A stretch of DNA of 20,890 nt from a virus: the IMG/VR virus record IMGVR_UViG_3300030060_002071, positions 4,291-25,180 of that record. The stretch is one strand, 5' to 3'. Shown piece by piece: positions 3,001-20,890 of this stretch (position 1 is its first letter; each line of letters begins with the position of its first letter). The notes under the pieces are model-generated. The model saw only the letters and a program-made list of their open reading frames with translations. It made no database searches and was not told the DNA's origin. Position numbers and translations under genes: made by a program.

Positions 3001-4139
3001 AATATTTTTTCAGCTAAATCATGTTCTGCATTTTCTGGAACATCAAAAGGTTTTAAATTACCTTTTTCAGATTCATCTTTATATCGCTTATAGTAGTTTA
3101 ATATATTACCGTATTCGCTTAATTTTTTGTTTCCTAATACTTCTTCTAGTTCATCATCTGATAAGTTTTCAGGATTTTCATACCAATCTAGATTTACTTT
3201 GTCAGGATCTATACCTGTTTTTTCTATTATAAGCTCTCTTAATTTTTCAACACTATTTTCTTTGTTATTTAAATAATTAAATAAGTGTGGATTATTTTTA
3301 ATAAATATTTCTTCTTCTTCAGGAACTCTACTTAAATCAAATAATTTTACTGTGCTTTTTTCTAATCCTTCATCAGAAATATCTACTAGTTCTGTATAAA
3401 GCTTGCTAGCGTCTATAAGCTCTGGCTTTTTTTCTCTAATATCTTTTAGTAAATCTCTAATTGTTTGATTAGCTATTTTATCACCAAACGTAGCTTTACT
3501 TACAATATTAAATAAATTATAAGGAACATCTAAACCTACTGATTTCGCTAAACCTGTTAATTCATCAGTTTTAGCTTGTATAGCTTCGTCGTATTCATTT
3601 CTAGCCTTAGTATATTCTTCACCTCCAGTATTTGCCGCCTCTGATAATTTACGAGCGGCTTCTGTTGGATAAAAACCATAATCTACTTTAGTAGTTGTAT
3701 CTTCATCTGATGCTAATGATGTTTGAGAATATGGATCACTTGCGCCAGTCGCATCCATTAGTTCTTGTTCTTCCGCTTCTTCAAACTCTTCTACAGTTGT
3801 ATCACCTAATACTACTGGTTCTAGTTCTTCTTGAACCGTATACACATCGTCTACAAAAGCAGGTTCATCTTTATCACCAGTTAAAATTGTTTCTTCACCA
3901 CCACGTACTTGAATCTCTGTTTTTTTACCTCCAAGGTCTAAATATTCTTTAGAAGTTTTAAACACAGCGATCTGCTCTTGAAGAAAACCTTCAGGAGGTG
4001 CTGAGGTAGGATAAGATCTATCAGCTTCTGATAACGTACCGTCTTGTATCTGAGCATTTTCTTGCTCATGCTTTAAAGCATATTCATTTTTTATTTCATT
4101 TATAAATATACTTAAAAGCTGTTTCTGTTGTCTATTCAT
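1..4139 (-). CDS. Giant putative virion ejection protein (large polyvalent-protein type), 5' part; runs off the left edge
   Basis: The frame is open from an ATG at 4139 to the window edge: 1379 full codons plus two bases, with no stop seen on translating it through. The start overlaps the end of the preceding gene by 8 bases, which suggests translational coupling. The N-terminal ~300 residues are acidic, Glu/Asp/Lys-rich and probably helical. Around residues 560-580 is a hydrophobic stretch (containing YMVVSSLNAYGVPVGLIAIG), and near 730-750 a Gly-rich one (GLIGGTSGGLVTG). Residues 1018-1030 read FDPSKGVTWSTYV, like the end of region 2 of sigma-70 factors. The visible C-terminal end is Ala-rich and helical (AAVAAAEAARRFTLAML). 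Size, position at the end of the structural module and helical makeup suggest an internal head protein ejected with DNA, comparable in place to T7 gp16. I saw no lytic transglycosylase motif and no DxDxD polymerase motif in the visible part. The function is inferred; the open frame is certain. Confidence 0.85.
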   Translation of the reverse strand, partial: MNRQQKQLLSIFINEIKNEYALKHEQENAQIQDGTLSEADRSYPTSAPPEGFLQEQIAVFKTSKEYLDLGGKKTEIQVRGGEETILTGDKDEPAFVDDVYTVQEELEPVVLGDTTVEEFEEAEEQELMDATGASDPYSQTSLASDEDTTTKVDYGFYPTEAARKLSEAANTGGEEYTKARNEYDEAIQAKTDELTGLAKSVGLDVPYNLFNIVSKATFGDKIANQTIRDLLKDIREKKPELIDASKLYTELVDISDEGLEKSTVKLFDLSRVPEEEEIFIKNNPHLFNYLNNKENSVEKLRELIIEKTGIDPDKVNLDWYENPENLSDDELEEVLGNKKLSEYGNILNYYKRYKDESEKGNLKPFDVPENAEHDLAEKIFAYRQVLKNPNISEEQREKILKRVKSLSALQEDYSDADQAIWDAKYAPGFTDAKYYGDLIKGFTGTVLDITAGLIDTPGYVNKLLLQTFFPDEVQAIEDKYAGDTVAETKALNMLGASKLSFGNPVNGMLFANIAPDISNVVRETADNITESTYQYRGGMLDNMMSGDFNFNDVADVAARLTNETVKSLPYMVVSSLNAYGVPVGLIAIGTSTATNTEYENNNAASEAFNQLQKLDPEAENYEEQVKELQKVIAAGDINGRNLAHSMVVGTVNSVLERFSGKLGRNFFAAAKGQTKEVVEKGLRSYLNKVVMGTGGEMGTEATQTALEKLSEYAIQGKEVEFIQALKEVIESGLIGGTSGGLVTGSTGGMNIVTQTVRENAQNRILKEVNLQNSYDLFKDNIFDQTDTVAEIDAESQINTSINEGQILFAQIPGSEYRLQGEVESKVAAGDITMLEGDNIRKNFRDIQGATNLLKPAGLETNVEAVNLMVEKKKLEEKIEELKKVSPVAASKLQARVDQIDTRLGDLTTEAMSSSSGIATATIIPGITKVIDLAENNKKTKFKKRELEKDSGINELLLQTIKDPNTKKADINQATDALIENNKALYYNAVGFNPERGDISGKAVMDAIRPRLGPIIKNFDPSKGVTWSTYVTDSLNKKRQEIYSEAGIGQQNISLDAEGAMQVADTQSEQDTQQDIPQRPKVYPSQLEAVAKVLTPEVRETQNAKVKDEIIRSINDKGVDPKAVATDLIGKTREKEIRNVIKSAVGRFGSPQYNQFVDDVVNQDFINSLPVSTIKGRFGKLFGIEEISKTPTKNVREGKKDSNFKKQVFRIPQTTPEKLQEIKDYFKANEKRSQSLFSLLAEGAIVEEVQTMRGDAEFMNKLNDVLELKGSKLNAEQFMDQLQKDADQRTKEDTSLDIVEDVIANLDKAIDFLESKAPDAAFSDPFGAVAAAEAARRFTLAMLKGIRNLINTKGKSFTEALKEFVDSAKTKEFFKPRNKA
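1051..1088 (-). other. Sigma-70 region-2-like motif inside the giant virion protein
   Basis: Residues 1018-1030 of the giant protein read FDPSKGVTWSTYV. The pattern of a Phe/Tyr-Asp-Pro-Ser-Lys/Arg-Gly stretch followed by Ser-Thr-Tyr is the familiar end of sigma-70 region 2 (compare FDPSRGFKFSTYA in bacterial sigma factors). It is preceded by a helix-like segment (AIRPRLGPIIKN) and followed by basic residues (NKKRQEIY). The similarity is visible by eye. Whether it is a functional RNA-polymerase-binding helix or a recurrent fold in large polyvalent phage proteins cannot be decided from one sequence. Confidence 0.5.
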
Positions 4140-13628: not shown

Positions 13629-13646
13629 TATAATCTATTTTTATTG

Positions 13647-14417
13647 TTAAATAAGCTTTTTAGCTACGTTCTTATAAATTTCTACTCCTTCATCAGTTTT
13701 AAACCACGCTGCTAGTGCTGCATATGGGTTTTCATCAAAAGGAACACTAAATAGTTTTCTTTTGTTTTTACCAATAGTAAAACTTCTTTGATCGTTAGCT
13801 AATTCTATTAAGCCTTGTTCTACAGCTTTGATACCAAAGTTTCTTAACTGTACGTTTTCATCGTTAGCTAATTCAATAAATAATCTTGAGTTATCTCTAG
13901 CGAATTTTAACAAGTCTCTTTTTATTTCTTTTGAAGCCATTTTATTTACTTCAGAACCAATTTCAGTTCTTAATATTGCCTCTGCTTGATCTACATCTAG
14001 CGTTTTAGCTATATTTAATGCTTCAATTTGATATTCTATTTCATCAACCTCATATTCTGCTTGTTGCAAAGGTTTAAGTTCTCTATATCTTTTTTCTCTA
14101 TCAGGGTGATATAATGAAAGCAGTTTTTGTAAAGCTTGTTCTTGTTTTGGAACTGTTAGTGAACCATCTGTAAACATAATATGTTTTAAAGTTACTTCAC
14201 CTTTTTGTTCATCTGTAAAACAAGAAGATTGATTTGTAGCATATCTTAATGCTCTTTGTGAGTTTTTATTTGTATCAAAATATAACAGAGGATATTTTTC
14301 TGTATGTCTTGATTTTATTGTATATGTTAAAGGGTTTTTGTCACCTCTTAAAACATATGTTCTATCTTTTATTTCCCAACCTTCTTCAGCTGGGTTTACT
14401 TTTACTTTTTTTGTCAT
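13647..14417 (-). CDS. Unrecognised protein encoded directly downstream of the capsid gene, 256 aa
   Basis: I cannot assign a function. The N-terminal ~90 residues look beta-rich (WEIKDRTYVLRGDKNPLTYT, then YPLLYFDTNKNSQRALRYAT) and carry the only cysteine (NQSSCF). From about residue 90 the protein is helical and charged, with coiled-coil-like Glu/Lys/Leu segments (LQQAEYEVDEIEYQIEAL). It ends in a compact 'ENPYAALAAWFKTDEGVEIY' segment. There is no signal peptide or membrane segment. Genes in this place in related phages are often head-completion, capsid-decoration or connector proteins, and that is my best guess. It is separated from the capsid gene by 63 bases that carry a strong hairpin, so it is probably made at a much lower level than the capsid protein. 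The HPD triplet near residue 104 is not accompanied by a recognisable J-domain. Confidence 0.75.
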   Translation of the reverse strand: MTKKVKVNPAEEGWEIKDRTYVLRGDKNPLTYTIKSRHTEKYPLLYFDTNKNSQRALRYATNQSSCFTDEQKGEVTLKHIMFTDGSLTVPKQEQALQKLLSLYHPDREKRYRELKPLQQAEYEVDEIEYQIEALNIAKTLDVDQAEAILRTEIGSEVNKMASKEIKRDLLKFARDNSRLFIELANDENVQLRNFGIKAVEQGLIELANDQRSFTIGKNKRKLFSVPFDENPYAALAAWFKTDEGVEIYKNVAKKLI

Positions 14418-14442
14418 GATATAATATAATTAAATAAGTTAA

Positions 14443-14471
14443 AGGTATTGGGCGCCGAAGCGCCCTTACCT
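14443..14471 (-). terminator. cUUCGg stem-loop behind the major capsid gene (terminator or RNA-stabilising hairpin)
   Basis: On the minus strand the RNA has a 5-bp outer stem (AGGUA with UACCU), a small internal loop (A opposite AA), a 6-bp GC-only inner stem (GGGCGC with GCGCCC) and a UUCG loop closed by C-G, the exceptionally stable tetraloop. It starts 9 bases after the capsid stop codon. The sequence after it (UUAACUUAUUUAAUUAU) is U-rich but has no continuous U-run, so it may be a leaky terminator or a 3' end-protecting hairpin that raises capsid mRNA over the genes downstream. It is the only strong GC hairpin I see in the window. Confidence 0.7.
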
Positions 14472-14480
14472 ATATAAAAA

Positions 14481-15959
14481 TTAAGCTGTAAATAATACAA
14501 AATTATTTCTAGCTTGAACACATAAACATCTTTCAGATAAGAAGTTTACTTCCATCGCGTCTAATGTAGAACTAAATGCTCCACCAACAGAACCTGTTAG
14601 CCAAGATTTCATTCTTCTATCATCAGCTTGAGAAGCTCTATATCTTACATGTAAGAAAGGTCTTCTAATGTTTGTTCCAAGTAATTGATCGTATACTGTA
14701 GAAGTTCCAGCAGGTACTAATACACCATCGATGTTGTCACCGTTAACAAAGTTAGCAGATCCACCTCTTAATGAAGCGTCGTTTAAGTATTTCCAAGAAG
14801 TCTTATAGAAGTCATATGAACCTCTTCTAAATCCAGAGAAACCTAAGTTAAGCGCCATATCTTCAGAGTTTTCAAATACACCGTAAGATGTACCACCAGC
14901 TCCGTAAGAGTTTTGTTGTGCTAACATGTTATCAAATAATAACTCAGTTTTTCTGTCTAAGAATAACATATTCTCTTCAATAGCTCCTTGGCTATCTAGT
15001 AATTGTAATACAGAATCAAAATCCTGTAATGAACCAGCAAATCCAGAAAGTACATTACCGCCATTGTTGATAGCAGCAAATAAACCTTCAGTACCGATTT
15101 GTCCAGCACCAGCAGTTCCAGGGAAACCTAAAGCTGCAACACCACGTATAGCAGTTGCTTGTGCACCATTAGCTAATTCACCTTCGATCATTGCCATTTC
15201 TAAATAATCTTCAAATCTTAATCTAGTTTCACCTTCAGCTTTTAGATACCATAAGTATCCAGAAGTTCCATCTTCAGCAGCTACTTCAACCCAGCCGATT
15301 TGTGCTGTATCAGATCCAGATACTGCGTATCTATCTCTAATAATAATTGGTTTGTTGCTAAATACAGATAATTGTGGCTCAACAGATTGACCTGTAGAGT
15401 TATCTAATGTAGATCCTTTTCCAAATTCAGAACCATAAACAAACATTTTTAATCCAGTCATACCAGCGGCTACATTAGCATTAATTTTAGCTCTAGTATA
15501 AGGAACAGCGTCGATAACTAAAGCACCTAATGCTGAACCAGTGTTTGCACCTGAATCAGAAACGATACATTTTACAGTAAATGAAGGATCATTTGGATCC
15601 ATAATTACGATTGTTTGGTTAATAAATACCGCGTTGTCTGCACCTACGATAGTTAATCTACTACCGTTATTTGCACCTGAACCAGAAACTGATACATTAT
15701 CATAAGAGATATGTAATCTGTTTTGCTCAGACCATACAACTTGGTCAGACATCATTGGCATTTCAGCACCAACCATTCTCAAGAAGCCTCCAATCGTTCT
15801 GTTTCCATAACGCTCTACCTCGGCTTCATAAATTTCAGGTAGATATTGTTGCGCGAAATCATTACCTCCACCGTCAGCAAAGTTTAAGTAGTTGTCTACT
15901 AAAGTTTGTTTCTTAGGCGATGGTATAAGACTTCCGAACTGAGGACTTAATACACCCAT
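14481..15959 (-). CDS. Major capsid protein (HK97-type fold inferred), 492 aa
   Basis: Several things mark this as the coat protein: its position after portal and scaffold genes, its length, the Gly/Ala/Asn/Ser-rich composition, and clearly more GC-rich, expression-adapted codon use than its neighbours (Ile mostly ATT/ATC, whereas other genes use ATA heavily). An N-terminal arm (residues 1-45) contains a helix-forming 'NDFAQQYLPEIYEAEVERYG' segment. The middle is beta-rich with an Asn/Gly-rich insertion (90-160). A long helix follows (LRFEDYLEMAMIEGELANGA, ~245-265), and the end reads VNFLSERCLCVQARNNFVLF. From memory, the 'SERCL.VQ..N.FVLF' ending and 'FLHVRYRASQADDRRMKSWL' resemble capsid proteins of crAss-like and marine Bacteroidota phages. 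No N-terminal delta domain or protease gene is visible, so scaffold rather than cleavage probably guides assembly. The ATG at 15959 is preceded by TTTAAA; the scaffold stop is 11 bases upstream. Confidence 0.92.
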   Translation of the reverse strand: MGVLSPQFGSLIPSPKKQTLVDNYLNFADGGGNDFAQQYLPEIYEAEVERYGNRTIGGFLRMVGAEMPMMSDQVVWSEQNRLHISYDNVSVSGSGANNGSRLTIVGADNAVFINQTIVIMDPNDPSFTVKCIVSDSGANTGSALGALVIDAVPYTRAKINANVAAGMTGLKMFVYGSEFGKGSTLDNSTGQSVEPQLSVFSNKPIIIRDRYAVSGSDTAQIGWVEVAAEDGTSGYLWYLKAEGETRLRFEDYLEMAMIEGELANGAQATAIRGVAALGFPGTAGAGQIGTEGLFAAINNGGNVLSGFAGSLQDFDSVLQLLDSQGAIEENMLFLDRKTELLFDNMLAQQNSYGAGGTSYGVFENSEDMALNLGFSGFRRGSYDFYKTSWKYLNDASLRGGSANFVNGDNIDGVLVPAGTSTVYDQLLGTNIRRPFLHVRYRASQADDRRMKSWLTGSVGGAFSSTLDAMEVNFLSERCLCVQARNNFVLFTA

Positions 15960-15970
15960 TTTAAATAGTT

Positions 15971-17212
15971 TTAATTGTTAAATTTACTTCGTTTTATTCT
16001 AAGTTTTGAACTATCTACTCCGTCAATAGCTTTAACCTTAAGACCACCAATAAAAATATCACCGCCAGCTGTCTCACGAGTAGCTGTTGTAGGATTTTTT
16101 GAATTTTCCATTACGGTTTTAATTCCATCAGTTTTGCCTTGCTCATAAAAATGATTTACGATCTTGTCTATATTTTGAGCAGCGTACATAGCTTTGTGAT
16201 AACCTTTCGTATCTTTAACATTGCCTTCATTGTCTAAGAACCTCTCGACGAAGTTGTTAATGTTTGATTGATTTTCTGCAATTGAGCTAGGATCTTTTAC
16301 ACCATATCTAAACTTTTTTTCACCAACTTCGAAATCAAAACCTTTGAATTCATCAGTAAATAGTTGCTTAGTATCAGTTACAAAAGTTTCATGCCTTTGC
16401 GTAGCTATTTCTTGTTCTTTGCTATAACGGTTAAAAAAATCTAAAGCTTTTTGTTGTTCTTGATTAACACCAGGACGTGTTTTAATTTCATCATAGTATT
16501 GTTCTTTCAAGTCTTCTAAAAAATCTTTAGCTTCCGCTATAGCTTCTTTTTTAGCGAGTTGTTTTTTCTTGATGTCTCGCTGTTCATCAACATCATCATC
16601 ATAACTAAAACTTTCTTCCATAATGAATGAAACTTCTTCGTCATTTAAATGAGGTTTTGTTTGCTTGTAGTATTCTTTTAATAAAACATCATCGTTTACT
16701 TTTGAATAATCAGCATTTAATCTTACGTAGTCTTCAACTGTACCACCAGTTTCCTCCATAAAATCAACAAGCTTTTCAATGTTTTCAGGTAGTTGCCTAC
16801 CTAATACTTGCTCATCTCTTTTAGCTTCTTTTACTTGTTGCTCTAGTTTTTTTACTTCAGGTTTGGATTCTTCGGTAACTTCGACAAGAGGCGAGTTGGA
16901 CTTTTGTACTTCATCTTTATCGCTGACCCGTACTTCTCCGTCCACTTTTTTGCCAGTTTCGGGTTTGTCGCCCACAGGTACCTCCTTTGTTTCTCCGATT
17001 TGAATGGCATCTTCTTCTGGTTTTTTAGTTAAATCTACTTTAATATCTTCTTCAAGTTTAACGTTTGGATCTTTACTAAGATCAACCTTTACAGGTTCGT
17101 TTTTCTTTTCGCTAAACTTTTTTACTTTTGGCTTTGATTTAATTTTCATATCTCCACCTTCTGATTTGACCTCTTTAGTCACCTCAGGCTTTTTTGTTTC
17201 TTTTTCTGACAT
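15971..17212 (-). CDS. Putative capsid scaffolding protein, 413 aa
   Basis: The gene lies between portal and capsid genes, the usual scaffold position. The first ~145 residues are highly charged and disordered, almost all Lys, Glu, Asp, Val, Pro and Thr, with an imperfect 16-residue repeat (KVDLSKDP at 42-49, KVDLTKKP at 58-65). Residues ~150-290 are helical and acidic (KKQLAKKEAIAEAKDFLEDL, then LKEQYYDEIKTR), ideal for rod-like dimers. The C-terminal part contains GFDFEVGEKKFRYGVKDPS and an amphipathic helical stretch. It ends in a basic peptide (SSKLRIKRSKFNN), as in scaffolds whose C-terminal helix binds the coat protein. No serine protease motif is seen. About bases 16880-17010 are markedly GC-richer than the rest, with different codon choices. 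Assignment rests on position and composition rather than on a recognised family, although the DPS-to-C-terminus region looks familiar from Bacteroidota phages. Confidence 0.8.
   Translation of the reverse strand: MSEKETKKPEVTKEVKSEGGDMKIKSKPKVKKFSEKKNEPVKVDLSKDPNVKLEEDIKVDLTKKPEEDAIQIGETKEVPVGDKPETGKKVDGEVRVSDKDEVQKSNSPLVEVTEESKPEVKKLEQQVKEAKRDEQVLGRQLPENIEKLVDFMEETGGTVEDYVRLNADYSKVNDDVLLKEYYKQTKPHLNDEEVSFIMEESFSYDDDVDEQRDIKKKQLAKKEAIAEAKDFLEDLKEQYYDEIKTRPGVNQEQQKALDFFNRYSKEQEIATQRHETFVTDTKQLFTDEFKGFDFEVGEKKFRYGVKDPSSIAENQSNINNFVERFLDNEGNVKDTKGYHKAMYAAQNIDKIVNHFYEQGKTDGIKTVMENSKNPTTATRETAGGDIFIGGLKVKAIDGVDSSKLRIKRSKFNN
16881..17010 (-). other. GC-rich, codon-atypical patch in the scaffold gene
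   Basis: By hand count 16921-16980 is 33/60 G+C (55%), against roughly 30% for the window, with 16861-16920 at 24/60 and 16981-17040 at 21/60. It encodes about residues 68-111, a disordered acidic/basic linker (GETKEVPVGDKPETGKKV, GEVRVSDKDEV) using GGG, CCC, GTC and CGG-type codons scarce elsewhere. It may be a recent replacement in a tolerant linker, or simply local drift. Confidence 0.45.
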
Positions 17213-17239
17213 AATAAAATATTATAAAATTGGTTGTTG

Positions 17240-19594
17240 TTATTTCTGGAAATTAGTAGGTAGTAAATCAAATTTTCTTTGATCTATCATTTTACTCTGT
17301 TGAGTACCTTCTAATTTCGTTCTATTATCTTTACGATCTTCAATATACTTTTCACGCTGTATCATTTGATCAACTTCCATTTCTTTTAGTTGTTTATCAA
17401 AATCAAATTGAATTTGCATTTCTTGTTGTTTAATTTGAGAAGCAACCTGCATGCGTTGTATATCGAATTGACTTTTAGCTTTTTCGTAATTTAAATTTTG
17501 AGCAGATAAAGCTTCTTGTTTTTGTACTTCAGCCATAGCAGCTCTTTCAGCAGTTTGTGCGTTAGCATCTGCTTGTGCTTGAATATTCATTTGAGCTTGC
17601 TGCTGCTCCATAGCTTGACGTTTTTTACGTTTCTGCTTTAATAAATCATTAGCAAGTTTTAAATTATGAATTTGTCTTATGTCTATAGCATCTTCTAAAT
17701 CTATACCACCTTGCTGAAGAGCCATTTGAATATTTTGTTCAAGCTGTGCTTTTTCTTCTTCTTCTGGTTCTAATTGTAAATACAAACCAAAGTCATGTAA
17801 ATTTAAGTTACCTATTTCTTGTAAAGTACCTACATTGTAAGTAGATATAGAACTTTTAAGAGAATTTAAAGTTAAAGGATAACTTAATGAATCAGCTACT
17901 TTTAAAGATATATTTTCACATGTTCTAAGCGTAAGCCATAAACTAGCTTGTAATATATGTTTTGTAGCTGTATTAGATGCGTTAGCAGCCATTTTTTGTA
18001 AACCTACTAAAGAATCTTTATCTGGCATACTACCATCTCTAGCTTCATTTAATCCGGTCACATCTCTTATTAACTGTAAATAGTATTGATAAGTACTAAT
18101 TAAACTTTGTATTTTACCTTGACCACTAGATGTTTGTAGTTCTTGAATAGGAACTTTACCTGGATTCATATCACCTTCTTGAGTTAGTGATCTACCTACA
18201 ATACTACCAGTTTGAAAATACATATTTAATGCCTCTGCTGGATTATAATTAGTACCATTACCTAAATCAACTTCAGCAAGACCGTCCATATCTAAGTAAA
18301 CACCATCTGGCACCATACGCGACATAACTTGTTGTAGTTTTAAATGAGTTAACTGTATCATATCAGCAAATCCAGTTATTCTATTTACTATAGAATCTAT
18401 CCTACCTTTATACATACGAGGCGCACATATAGCATAGCTCATTTCTACTTTTGTAGTATCAGCAAAAGGTCTAGTCATGTTTTCAGATAATCTCCACTCA
18501 ATAAGCTCGTTATTACCTATTACTTTTACACCTTCATATAATACTTCTATTTTTCTACCAACTCTTTCAAAATTATCACTAGGTTCAGGATTAAAAGTAT
18601 CTGGTTTTTCAATAGCTTTCTCTAAACCATTTTGACCTTGTTTAATTTTAAACACTTGAGTATTATAAGTTTTATATTCAAAAAATAAAACTTGTATAGT
18701 ATTTTCATCGTAAGTCTGCCAGCCGTATAGCTGGTTTCTAATACCTTTTGTCTTTTGTATTTTATCTAATTGCTCCTCAGTTAAATGTGGAAACTTTTTA
18801 GCAATTTCACCTATAGTTAATTGTTTTACCTCACCTACATAATATATATCTTCAAAATTTGGATCTTCTGTGTAAGAATATATTAATCTTGCTGGATCCA
18901 CATAATCAACTGTTACACCATTAGCTAAATTCCAGTCTGTTTTAACAGCACCAATACCTAATGTAACTAAATCATAGTTAAATCTTTTCTTTATATTTTC
19001 AAATCTATTTTTAGCAAGAGTATTATCTATAACTTCTTCTTCAGCTATTTCTATAGACTGTTTGTAACTCAACTGCATGTGAAGATCTAATTCTTCTTGG
19101 TTTTCTGGTAAAGCAGCGGGTGTTGTACTTTTATAATTATTTACACCTAAATTAGCTTCTAAATTTTGTAAATAAGGTTGAGCTAACATATCATGCATAA
19201 TAGCATTAGCATAATCAGTTCGCTTTTTTAAAGATACTGGATCTTGTGCAAATGCTTTTACTTCAAAAGATTTATTAGATAAACCATTTACTACTATATC
19301 TACAAATTTAGATATTACAGGAACTGGTTTCCAGTCTAAATTTAAATAAGACATATCACCATTAATAGCTAATTCATCTTTATATTTTTGGACTGGTTGT
19401 TCACCTCTCGCGTATAATCTTAAACTATGAAACCTATTAAATGATGTAGCAAACCTAGTGCCATTACCACCTTGTCTCCACCACTCGCCTTCAATAGCTT
19501 GTGCTACTTGTCTTCCATATTCTAAAGAAGATTTTTCTGCATCCGGCACAACTTGGCTAGGAAAAGCGCTATAGGCATTTGTATATATATTCAT
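17240..19594 (-). CDS. Portal protein, 784 aa
   Basis: The portal forms the 12-subunit ring at one head vertex through which DNA passes; it docks TerL during packaging and the tail afterwards. The core has the expected portal features: an N-terminal WWRQGGNG and aromatic/basic region, then 'YLNLDWKPVPVISKFVDIVV' (~80-105), a strand-rich wing (150-420), and 'DVTGLNEARDGSMPDKDSLV' (~512-531) leading into the long 'GLQKMAANASNTATKHIL' helix. From ~609 the protein becomes a long Gln/Glu/Lys coiled coil (barrel/crown), including 'IDIRQIHNLKLANDLLKQKR'. That segment and the overall ~780-residue length resemble portals of crAss-like phages, from memory. The start codon directly follows the TerL stop (TAA ATG, no gap) with no Shine-Dalgarno, implying coupled translation. 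The hydrophilic C-terminal tail could equally point into the head. No frameshift or missing part is apparent. Confidence 0.93.
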   Translation of the reverse strand: MNIYTNAYSAFPSQVVPDAEKSSLEYGRQVAQAIEGEWWRQGGNGTRFATSFNRFHSLRLYARGEQPVQKYKDELAINGDMSYLNLDWKPVPVISKFVDIVVNGLSNKSFEVKAFAQDPVSLKKRTDYANAIMHDMLAQPYLQNLEANLGVNNYKSTTPAALPENQEELDLHMQLSYKQSIEIAEEEVIDNTLAKNRFENIKKRFNYDLVTLGIGAVKTDWNLANGVTVDYVDPARLIYSYTEDPNFEDIYYVGEVKQLTIGEIAKKFPHLTEEQLDKIQKTKGIRNQLYGWQTYDENTIQVLFFEYKTYNTQVFKIKQGQNGLEKAIEKPDTFNPEPSDNFERVGRKIEVLYEGVKVIGNNELIEWRLSENMTRPFADTTKVEMSYAICAPRMYKGRIDSIVNRITGFADMIQLTHLKLQQVMSRMVPDGVYLDMDGLAEVDLGNGTNYNPAEALNMYFQTGSIVGRSLTQEGDMNPGKVPIQELQTSSGQGKIQSLISTYQYYLQLIRDVTGLNEARDGSMPDKDSLVGLQKMAANASNTATKHILQASLWLTLRTCENISLKVADSLSYPLTLNSLKSSISTYNVGTLQEIGNLNLHDFGLYLQLEPEEEEKAQLEQNIQMALQQGGIDLEDAIDIRQIHNLKLANDLLKQKRKKRQAMEQQQAQMNIQAQADANAQTAERAAMAEVQKQEALSAQNLNYEKAKSQFDIQRMQVASQIKQQEMQIQFDFDKQLKEMEVDQMIQREKYIEDRKDNRTKLEGTQQSKMIDQRKFDLLPTNFQK

Positions 19595-20890
19595 TTACTT
19601 AATTATTTTTGATAACGAACCTCGATTATCATATTTTTTAATTCCAAGATCAATTGGATCTCGCTTTCTTCTGCTTACTGGAGCATATCTATTTTTATTA
19701 CACGCCATTAAAGCAAGACCAGAACTAATAGAAGCATCATGCGTTGTTCTATTATTAATATCAAAAGCAGCCCAGTCTTCAAGTGTACGTTGAAAATAGA
19801 CGTCACCATAAGTATCACCATTAAACCCTACAGTTGTTTCAATATAAGATTCAATAGCAGCAGCATGAGCTTGTTTTATATCTTCACTAGAATTAGGTAT
19901 ACCACCTATTTCTCTTTCAGTAACTGATAATTTATTTCTAAGTTTATCAGGTCTATTCATTGCAAAACCTCTATAACCTCTACGTTTGAAGTGATATAAA
20001 AGTCTTGGTTTATTATTTTCTGCAAGTATTGGCATACCATAAAATACACAAGCCATTAATACATCTTCAAAAAATATTTCAGCAGTTTGAGGTCTTGCTA
20101 TGTATTCTAAAAAAAAGTGATCAGCTGGTGCGTTTTCCATACTAAACTTTGTAAGTCCGTGTAATGCTCCATTAGAACCTCGCTTGTCTACTGTACCTGA
20201 TATATCATATGGATCACAACCAAAAGCTCCTATATGATCATTGCCAGGATATTTAATACCATTTCTTTCTATGTATCTATTTTGTAAATGTTTATCAGGA
20301 ACCCAAGTTACATAAAATCTACCTTGATTACTAGGAAAAAATACTACTCTTGTATCTTTAACTCCTTTCTCCCACATAAAATTACCTTGTGTAACTAATG
20401 TTTTATTATTTTGATCTTCGTTAAAATCTATTTGTTGATATATTTTTGTTAGATTAAATAAAGAAGATTTAGATTCATCTCTAAATGCATGTTTTGTAGT
20501 TCTTGGAAACTGTCTATAAAACTCATTTAAAGCGTCTTGATTATCTTTTAAGCCATCGACTTCATTTTCCCAGTATTCAATAACCCCAAGGTCGATAGAC
20601 TCGTTTTGTGGTCCGAGTATTTCTGTGTCGGGAGTGTCGAAGACAGGTATGCCATAAGAATCAATGTAGCCTTCGTAGTTCCATTCCATAGGTATGAACA
20701 AAGAATATAATCCCGAACTAGTCTGTCCGTTGCGGTTTCTTTTTGTAACATCTGATTCATCATATAATTTTTTAAAGTTTCTACCACCTTTATCTAAAGC
20801 GTTTGATGTTGATCCCATCATACATTTACCAATAATTCTACTACCTAATCTTAATGTGGTTTTCGTGACCCTCCAGTTGTTGAGGATGTT
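19595..20890 (-). CDS. terL: Terminase large subunit, C-terminal part; 5' end beyond the right edge
   Basis: TerL is the ATP-driven packaging motor and DNA-cutting nuclease. The frame is open to the window edge, 23 codons beyond the first in-window ATG (20821), so that ATG is internal: the upstream codons read RLGSRIIGKCMMGSTSN, continuous with the protein. What is visible is the end of the ATPase domain (GGRNFKKLYDESD, then SGLYSLFIPMEWNYEGYID) and the RNase H-like nuclease. Counting from that ATG, 'GAFGCDPYD' puts a catalytic-type Asp at 203, and 'THDASISSGLALMA' gives Asp 362 in the place of the last metal ligand. Walker A and B motifs must lie outside the window. The 'GS..NALDKGG..FKKLYD.SD' style resembles TerL of crAss-like and other Bacteroidota phages. 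Bases about 20560-20760 have unusually high G+C for this genome. It ends in TAA immediately before the portal ATG. Confidence 0.93.
   Translation of the reverse strand, partial: NILNNWRVTKTTLRLGSRIIGKCMMGSTSNALDKGGRNFKKLYDESDVTKRNRNGQTSSGLYSLFIPMEWNYEGYIDSYGIPVFDTPDTEILGPQNESIDLGVIEYWENEVDGLKDNQDALNEFYRQFPRTTKHAFRDESKSSLFNLTKIYQQIDFNEDQNNKTLVTQGNFMWEKGVKDTRVVFFPSNQGRFYVTWVPDKHLQNRYIERNGIKYPGNDHIGAFGCDPYDISGTVDKRGSNGALHGLTKFSMENAPADHFFLEYIARPQTAEIFFEDVLMACVFYGMPILAENNKPRLLYHFKRRGYRGFAMNRPDKLRNKLSVTEREIGGIPNSSEDIKQAHAAAIESYIETTVGFNGDTYGDVYFQRTLEDWAAFDINNRTTHDASISSGLALMACNKNRYAPVSRRKRDPIDLGIKKYDNRGSLSKIIK
20560..20760 (-). other. GC-rich, codon-atypical patch in the terminase gene
   Basis: Hand counts give 30/60 G+C for 20581-20640, 24/60 for 20641-20700 and 22/60 for 20701-20760, whereas 20401-20460 of the same gene has 9/60. 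The patch encodes the conserved-looking stretch from NGQTSSGLYSLFIPMEWNYE to IPVFDTPDTEILGP and the following residues, and uses GTC, GAC, CTC, CTT, GGG and CCC codons uncommon in the rest of the gene. The reading frame is intact. Recombination with a relative, or past visit of an intron or homing element common in terL, could explain it. Confidence 0.45.

Follow-up and report, generated by a model that had tools for sequence, protein, structure and literature searches.

A capsid-junction RNA hairpin that keeps its place but not its sequence, probably a leaky terminator in a group of mostly uncultured phages

Hairpins closed by a cUUCGg loop are reportedly found between the cistrons of phage T4. 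In T4-like phages, PeSL cassettes, which are said to combine an early host-type promoter with a terminator stem-loop, reportedly occur at many places. In phage T7, the terminator T-phi is located directly downstream of the capsid gene 10A and terminates transcription incompletely, and the scaffold and capsid genes, with promoters of their own, are the highest-expressed genes (PMC6068830). A terminator at the capsid gene of the vibriophage phiA318 is termed a potential T-phi analogue (PMC4099482). The late promoters of T4, of which fifty are listed, are characterized by a TATA-box, an AT-rich downstream part, the lack of a conserved -35 region and a phage sigma-like subunit (PMC2988020).

The stretch of DNA analyzed here (the window) comprises 20,890 bases out of a viral contig of 25,180 bases and has a G + C content of 32.7%. 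The genes of its virion module are all located on the minus strand, in the order terminase, portal, presumed scaffold, capsid candidate, hairpin, a 256-aa gene and more virion genes (Table 1). The capsid gene is a candidate by its PHROG match and the gene order. For the 256-aa protein, hereafter the product of the next gene, the predicted fold (pLDDT 76.8, pTM 0.48) gave no PDB match at E ≤ 0.001.

Table 1. Features of the capsid junction and the adjoining genes, with positions in the window.
Feature	Positions	Strand	Remark
Terminase	19595-20821	minus	
Portal	17240-19594	minus	
Degenerate AT-block copy between portal and scaffold genes	17213-17236	minus	PSSM 10.4 bits, cut 10; proposed scaffold-capsid promoter
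Presumed scaffold gene, between portal and capsid	15971-17212	minus	by position, without family match
Major capsid protein candidate	14481-15959	minus	phrog_13704 (head and packaging, virion structural protein), E 4.5e-86
RNA hairpin cUUCGg	14443-14471	minus	inner stem 14450-14455/14460-14465, outer stem 14443-14447/14467-14471
Tail behind the stem as scored, UUUAACUUAUUUAAU	14429-14443	minus	first U is the last outer-stem base; d-score +7.6
Conserved AT block TAACTTATTTAATTATATTATATC and ATG of the next gene	14415-14441	minus	proposed second-unit phage promoter
Conserved 256-aa gene 3' of the hairpin	13647-14417	minus	phrog_34748; without known function
Gap 3' of the 256-aa gene	13629-13646	minus	18 nt, without second hairpin

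Read from 14471 to 14443 on the minus strand, the hairpin has the sequence AGGUA-A-GGGCGC-UUCG-GCGCCC-AA-UACCU and is built of a 6-bp all-GC inner stem, a cUUCGg loop, a 1x2 internal loop and a 5-bp outer stem. Its MFE of -17.5 kcal/mol (z -4.05) was equaled in 0 of 200 shuffles, and it has the top stability among the 30-nt stretches of the window, taken on both strands in steps of 3 nt. The window contains one perfect 6-bp all-GC stem with a loop of 3-8 nt; 300 dinucleotide shuffles gave none. Upon refolding of the minus strand, the coordinates, the stems and loop and the start 9 nt past the capsid stop were reproduced as given in the original prediction, which had also placed the hairpin in the largest gap; with 63 nt, this gap is the largest among the 11 junctions listed. 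The hairpin was not among the calls of a consensus terminator scan of the window, presumably owing to its internal loop and weak tail, and the search of Rfam at 14300-14600 gave only a sub-threshold match to sau-66 on the plus strand (23.2 bits vs. 80).

Related loci were fetched from IMG/VR with the capsid protein; out of at least 600, the best 80 were taken, and 76 of these were testable (left out of the counts were L019, L054 and L070, where a gene runs off the contig, L042 with a truncated gene, and L081, which equals the window). In all 76 of these relatives and in the window, a hairpin with a folding energy between -15.5 and -26.1 kcal/mol starts 7-30 nt past the capsid stop. When junctions were compared by their best hairpin at or below -14 kcal/mol inside about 80 nt, this threshold was reached after the capsid gene in 77 of 77 cases, but after the portal gene in 0 of 80 (lowest -12.0), after the scaffold gene in 0 of 80 (lowest -13.5) and after p241 in 0 of 54 (lowest -9.6). 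The hairpin had been predicted to be a single one, which holds within the window but not for the relatives, where a second strong hairpin follows the next gene in 60 of the 65 junctions tested; it is absent from the window as well as from L001 and L002. The cUUCGg loop is used by 28 of the 77 capsid-junction hairpins and is therefore one loop solution among several. GC hairpins with this cap in intergenic regions of a phage resemble those reported for T4, from which the present ones differ in having been seen at one junction and in the share that uses cUUCGg.

At the same junction, a hairpin with a U-rich tract could be identified in seven named phages, namely elemoE, elemoF, Calle_2, phi38:1, phi13:2, the Maribacter phage Panino and Manatee Spring podovirus, which represent five distinct capsid junctions and whose capsid proteins are more distant (24-48% identity). 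The U-tract is strong in all seven, with 6-8 consecutive U in six of them and UUAUUUUUU in Panino (d-score 37-51). Based on the named relatives and on 6 of 12 genome-bin matches, the hosts of the clade are probably Bacteroidota. Besides these six, the 12 genome-bin contigs with capsid homologues (L337-L348) are labeled Aliivibrio, Pseudomonadales, TMED88 and, in two cases, as archaeal bins; the mixed labels are probably in part binning errors. Genes for a GroEL-like chaperonin and for the two subunits of ribonucleotide reductase are present in one relative, G003 (L086:15305-16858, L088:14762-16480, L088:17149-18117).

Taken together, we consider it fairly probable that the hairpin closes a scaffold-capsid unit at its 3' end, acting as a Rho-independent, presumably leaky, terminator of transcription. 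A stable G + C-rich RNA hairpin is present on the transcribed strand, and its place just behind the capsid stop, with the AT block directly downstream, is that of the 3' end of a transcription unit if the AT block starts transcription, as we infer. The position immediately 3' of the major capsid gene is also that of T-phi. A possible difference from T7 concerns the polymerase: T-phi is read by a phage single-subunit RNA polymerase, and PF00940 (T7-type RNA polymerase) was detected in 0 of 11 records here, a result of little weight because the 14 control genomes gave none either.

The third hallmark, the U-tract, was evaluated by the d-score formula, with the best sub-hairpin chosen each time. 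The original prediction had called the U-tract weak, and indeed the tail in the window (d 7.6) was equaled by 38% of its shuffled versions (p 0.38). The plus-strand reading scored 8.1 vs. 7.6 for the minus strand, and another site in the window, at 3405, outscores the hairpin with d 13.3. Across the clade, where the U-tract is short, d was positive in 63 and negative in 14 of the 77 loci (median 9.6); real tails exceeded their own shuffled mean in 47 of 77 loci, in 8 of 77 with p < 0.05, and the clade mean was 12.4 vs. 5.9 for shuffled tails. The U fraction behind the stem amounts to 0.64-0.80 at positions +1 to +4, 0.36-0.56 at +5 to +11 and again 0.57-0.62 at +12 to +14, with 0.51 in the 5' flank; this U-richness is confounded, because the tail overlaps the AT block. 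Since the tail is no better than shuffled ones, termination in the window would be argued from place, structure and homology and not from the U-tract, and the word "leaky" is apt. The further claim that partial termination sets the capsid protein apart is backed by homology, i.e., by the hairpins in all testable relatives and the U-tract terminators of the seven named phages. It has to be modified in that the unit set apart is probably scaffold and capsid together, because promoter-like blocks flank this pair and no strong hairpin lies between them.

As an alternative, the hairpin might be an element of RNA stability or processing, in which case read-through or otherwise longer transcripts would be cleaved or trimmed back to the hairpin, which would block 3' exonucleases and keep the capsid mRNA abundant. 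The window's very stable cUUCGg stem with its poor U-tract is in line with such a role, as are the negative d-scores of 14 of the 77 loci, as is the internal loop between inner and outer stem, present in the window and many relatives. Many of the second hairpins past the next gene also have no evident U-tract, as judged by eye and not by score. The named relatives, however, carry U-rich terminators at this very junction, a promoter-like block follows immediately, and the hairpin classes have no evident sequence in common, which a nuclease site might need. Processing or 3'-end protection is the strongest competitor to termination, though in our view the less likely of the two.

The AT block has the consensus TTAAcTATTTAATTATATTATATY and is located directly 5' of the start codon of the next gene, with a conservation of 0.76-1.0 at positions -19 to -2 (59 distinct sequences). 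The two best matches adjoining an ATG, in the window as well as in five long relatives, are located 3' of the capsid gene and, by distance, 5' of the scaffold gene, while matches without a following ATG reach up to 18.0 bits in G001 and 14.0 bits in G002. No match over the PSSM score cut was obtained 5' of the capsid gene. Between the scaffold and capsid genes, the 11 nt of the gap (15960-15970) read AACTATTTAAA on the coding strand; they resemble the first part of the AT block and likewise do not reach this cut. Two pooled scans yielded 249 exact copies in 229 loci among the matches listed, of which 140 are located 3' of the capsid gene and 102 3' of the portal gene, 6 were recognized by the downstream gene only and 1 lies at a contig end; the pooling of loci from the scan for the window-type hairpin with those of the AT-block scan (L105-L333) favors the capsid side in these counts, and L021 and L045 were omitted. 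Among the capsid-side copies, 84 of 84 distinct cases, which were partly preselected, have a hairpin of -12.9 kcal/mol or below upstream of the block. The block was also noted in L017, L030, L040, L072 and L073. An additional stem of about 42 nt (TGACATTAGCC...GGCTATTGTCA) with conserved loop letters lies between hairpin and AT block in L025, L028, L039, L045, L065 (a variant) and L078 as well as in 77 scanned stretches, all 77 scan matches being located 3' of the capsid gene; it is possibly a protein-binding or regulatory RNA.

Relatives encode a sigma factor of phrog_351, and the AT block is probably a late promoter, perhaps for this phage sigma factor. Of 35 records tested, 14 contain the 255-aa protein (E 2.2e-21), as do all 11 contigs larger than 60 kb, two of these copies being broken (loci L335, L336, L349-L353, L355 and L542-L547; contigs G001, G002, G015, G016, G018, G019, G024, G028-G032 and G034; broken in G017, L354, L356 and L357, and split in G032, L547 and L548). 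Pfam region 2 was under the cut-off in one search and over it in another, and region 4 gave a weak match below the cut-off, which distinguishes the clade sigma from gp55 of T4. In G001 and G002, about 30 kb separate the gene from that of the capsid, so that it can be missed on shorter contigs; it is not on the 25-kb fragment of the window, and no match at E ≤ 0.01 was obtained in the named relatives. The contig G018, with 129,537 bases about twice as long as the others, contains two different sigma copies (L352, L355) 62 kb apart; it may be chimeric, consist of two phages joined together or represent a larger genome.

With regard to the T4 late promoters, the AT block is similar in being TATA-box-like without a conserved -35 region, its upstream neighbor being the replaceable hairpin, and in that the relatives encode a phage sigma-like subunit. 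It differs in that two clear gene-start copies are present per genome, each abutting the start codon. Because the block abuts the ATG, a translation signal or a leaderless start is also possible. Compared with T7, the promoter-like block here is located 5' of the scaffold gene, with none over the cut 5' of the capsid gene, and the sequences are unrelated.

The motif TAnnTTTG, which we take to be the host-type promoter motif of Bacteroidota, was found in 0 of 76 clade gaps 3' of the capsid gene, where the AT block takes its place. All 7 of the named relatives have it 5' of the scaffold gene, and 3 of the 7 have it 5' of the next gene. Of 88 portal ends taken together with their gaps, 8 contain it. 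In four long relatives, this presumed host-type consensus in its TTTG form showed no excess; the laxer TTG form was found 15 times in G002 vs. 8.6 expected (sd 2.5), with no clear excess in the other three. A stem-loop terminator joined with a promoter and exchanged among related genomes is reminiscent of the PeSL cassettes, but the block here is AT-rich and without the host -7 element, the cassette was seen at one junction, and an early host-type promoter, by which we presume such cassettes to be defined, is lacking in the clade gaps 3' of the capsid gene.

Hairpins can themselves serve as promoters, as those of the N4 virion RNA polymerase do, and the hairpin might belong to the promoter that lies downstream. 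Its end is found 23-36 nt before the start codon of the next gene in 66 of 74 loci, adjacent to the AT block. Of 88 distinct portal-side copies of the AT block, however, 87 are located 6-17 nt past the portal stop (the 88th being mis-measured), which leaves no room for a hairpin; even with the portal coding sequence included, -14 kcal/mol was reached in 6 of 88. Furthermore, the AT block is nearly fixed while the adjoining hairpin is replaced wholesale, and the overall spacing ranges from 23 to 81 nt. A promoter role of the hairpin was rejected as very improbable because of the portal-side copies.

The replacement of the hairpins was followed in four classes, set by hand-written patterns. On the capsid tree (76 rows, L023 left out) at least 26 class changes are needed, compared to a least possible number of 3 and a shuffled mean of 34.0, a value as low being obtained in 1 of 200 shuffles; for the next gene, whose tree has 69 rows, the number is 21, vs. 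a shuffled mean of 30.6. By these counts, the classes are partly clustered, yet turnover is frequent. Co-inheritance of the hairpin with the next gene is not supported, since the classes also change 21 times on its tree. The 16-nt core of the window's hairpin recurs in loci whose capsid genes, over their last 300 nt, are down to 77.7% identical to that of the window. In pattern scans of IMG/VR that were blind to genes, the window-type hairpin had at least 120 copies, of which, among the matches listed, 117 are located 3' of a capsid homolog and the other 3 near the end of a stretch, 5' of the next gene. A second type likewise had at least 120 copies, 118 of those listed being 3' of the capsid gene and the remaining 2 recognized by the next gene alone. 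Both types do not look like general mobile terminators; the hairpins have been swapped between phages or rebuilt at one homologous junction.

Such turnover would also be expected if the site were mainly a DNA recombination joint for the exchange of modules among related phages, without a role as RNA. A general shuffling site would, however, also occur elsewhere, and the two hairpin types and the extra stem are found at one junction, as recognized by either flanking gene, among the matches listed (at least 120, at least 120, and 77). In addition, cUUCGg loops are located on the coding strand in 28 cases and on the opposite strand in none, folding favors the coding strand in 53 of 77 loci (the other strand in 10, about equal in 14), and 107 of 1165 pairs are G-U; these strand-specific features point to an RNA of the coding strand and make a pure recombination joint hardly credible.

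Across the relatives, whole stems are replaced while pairing, strand and place persist. In class B, analyzed with 16 of 17 distinct 41-nt hairpins (L067 dropped), 96.3% of the cells are paired and pairing is maintained through double changes. The covariation score was 0.154 vs. 0.094 and as high in 0 of 500 shuffles, a control that relatedness can inflate; three doubly changed pairs were matched by 21 of 500 shuffles, and 1 of the 17 pairs is unpaired in 9 of the 16 hairpins. The inner stems of the cUUCGg hairpins differ while pairing is retained. Compensatory stem changes in relatives, which the original prediction had proposed as its check, could thus be found in class B and in the varying cUUCGg stems. 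A chance GC-rich patch in an AT-rich genome is refuted by the stem's absence from all 300 shuffles and by the hairpin's presence in all 76 testable relatives.

Taken by itself, the hairpin represents a known kind of element, conserved in position, replaceable in sequence and located in a place like that of T-phi. As far as sequences can tell, the conservation of place and pairing while the letters are swapped wholesale shows that selection maintains this putative terminator position in a large, mostly uncultured phage group. Searches of open-licence papers yielded no terminator or promoter map for these phages and no description of such a hairpin together with two AT-block copies and a phage sigma factor.

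Capsid proteins are needed in great excess over the neighboring structural proteins. According to the proposed termination mechanism, RNA polymerase would start at the AT block 5' of the scaffold gene and transcribe scaffold and capsid. Behind the capsid stop, GGGCGC-UUCG-GCGCCC would fold and let the polymerase pause, and the short U-rich tail would release a part of the polymerases. The next gene would be initiated anew from the AT block just past the hairpin, so that capsid mRNA could be made in excess without co-producing the following genes. More tentatively, and with less confidence than we place in termination itself, a private late-promoter system of one phage sigma factor and two AT blocks bracketing scaffold and capsid may have replaced the host-type promoters of the virion module, the hairpin acting as a swappable, tunable leak valve. 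If so, leak strength would evolve by the swapping of whole hairpins and not by point mutation, and the near-invariant AT blocks of 22-24 nt, which abut the start codons, would possibly give rise to leaderless mRNAs. Combined with the phage sigma factor and the two copies of the AT block, the hairpin would provide a compact model, open to testing, of how these phages control their late genes.
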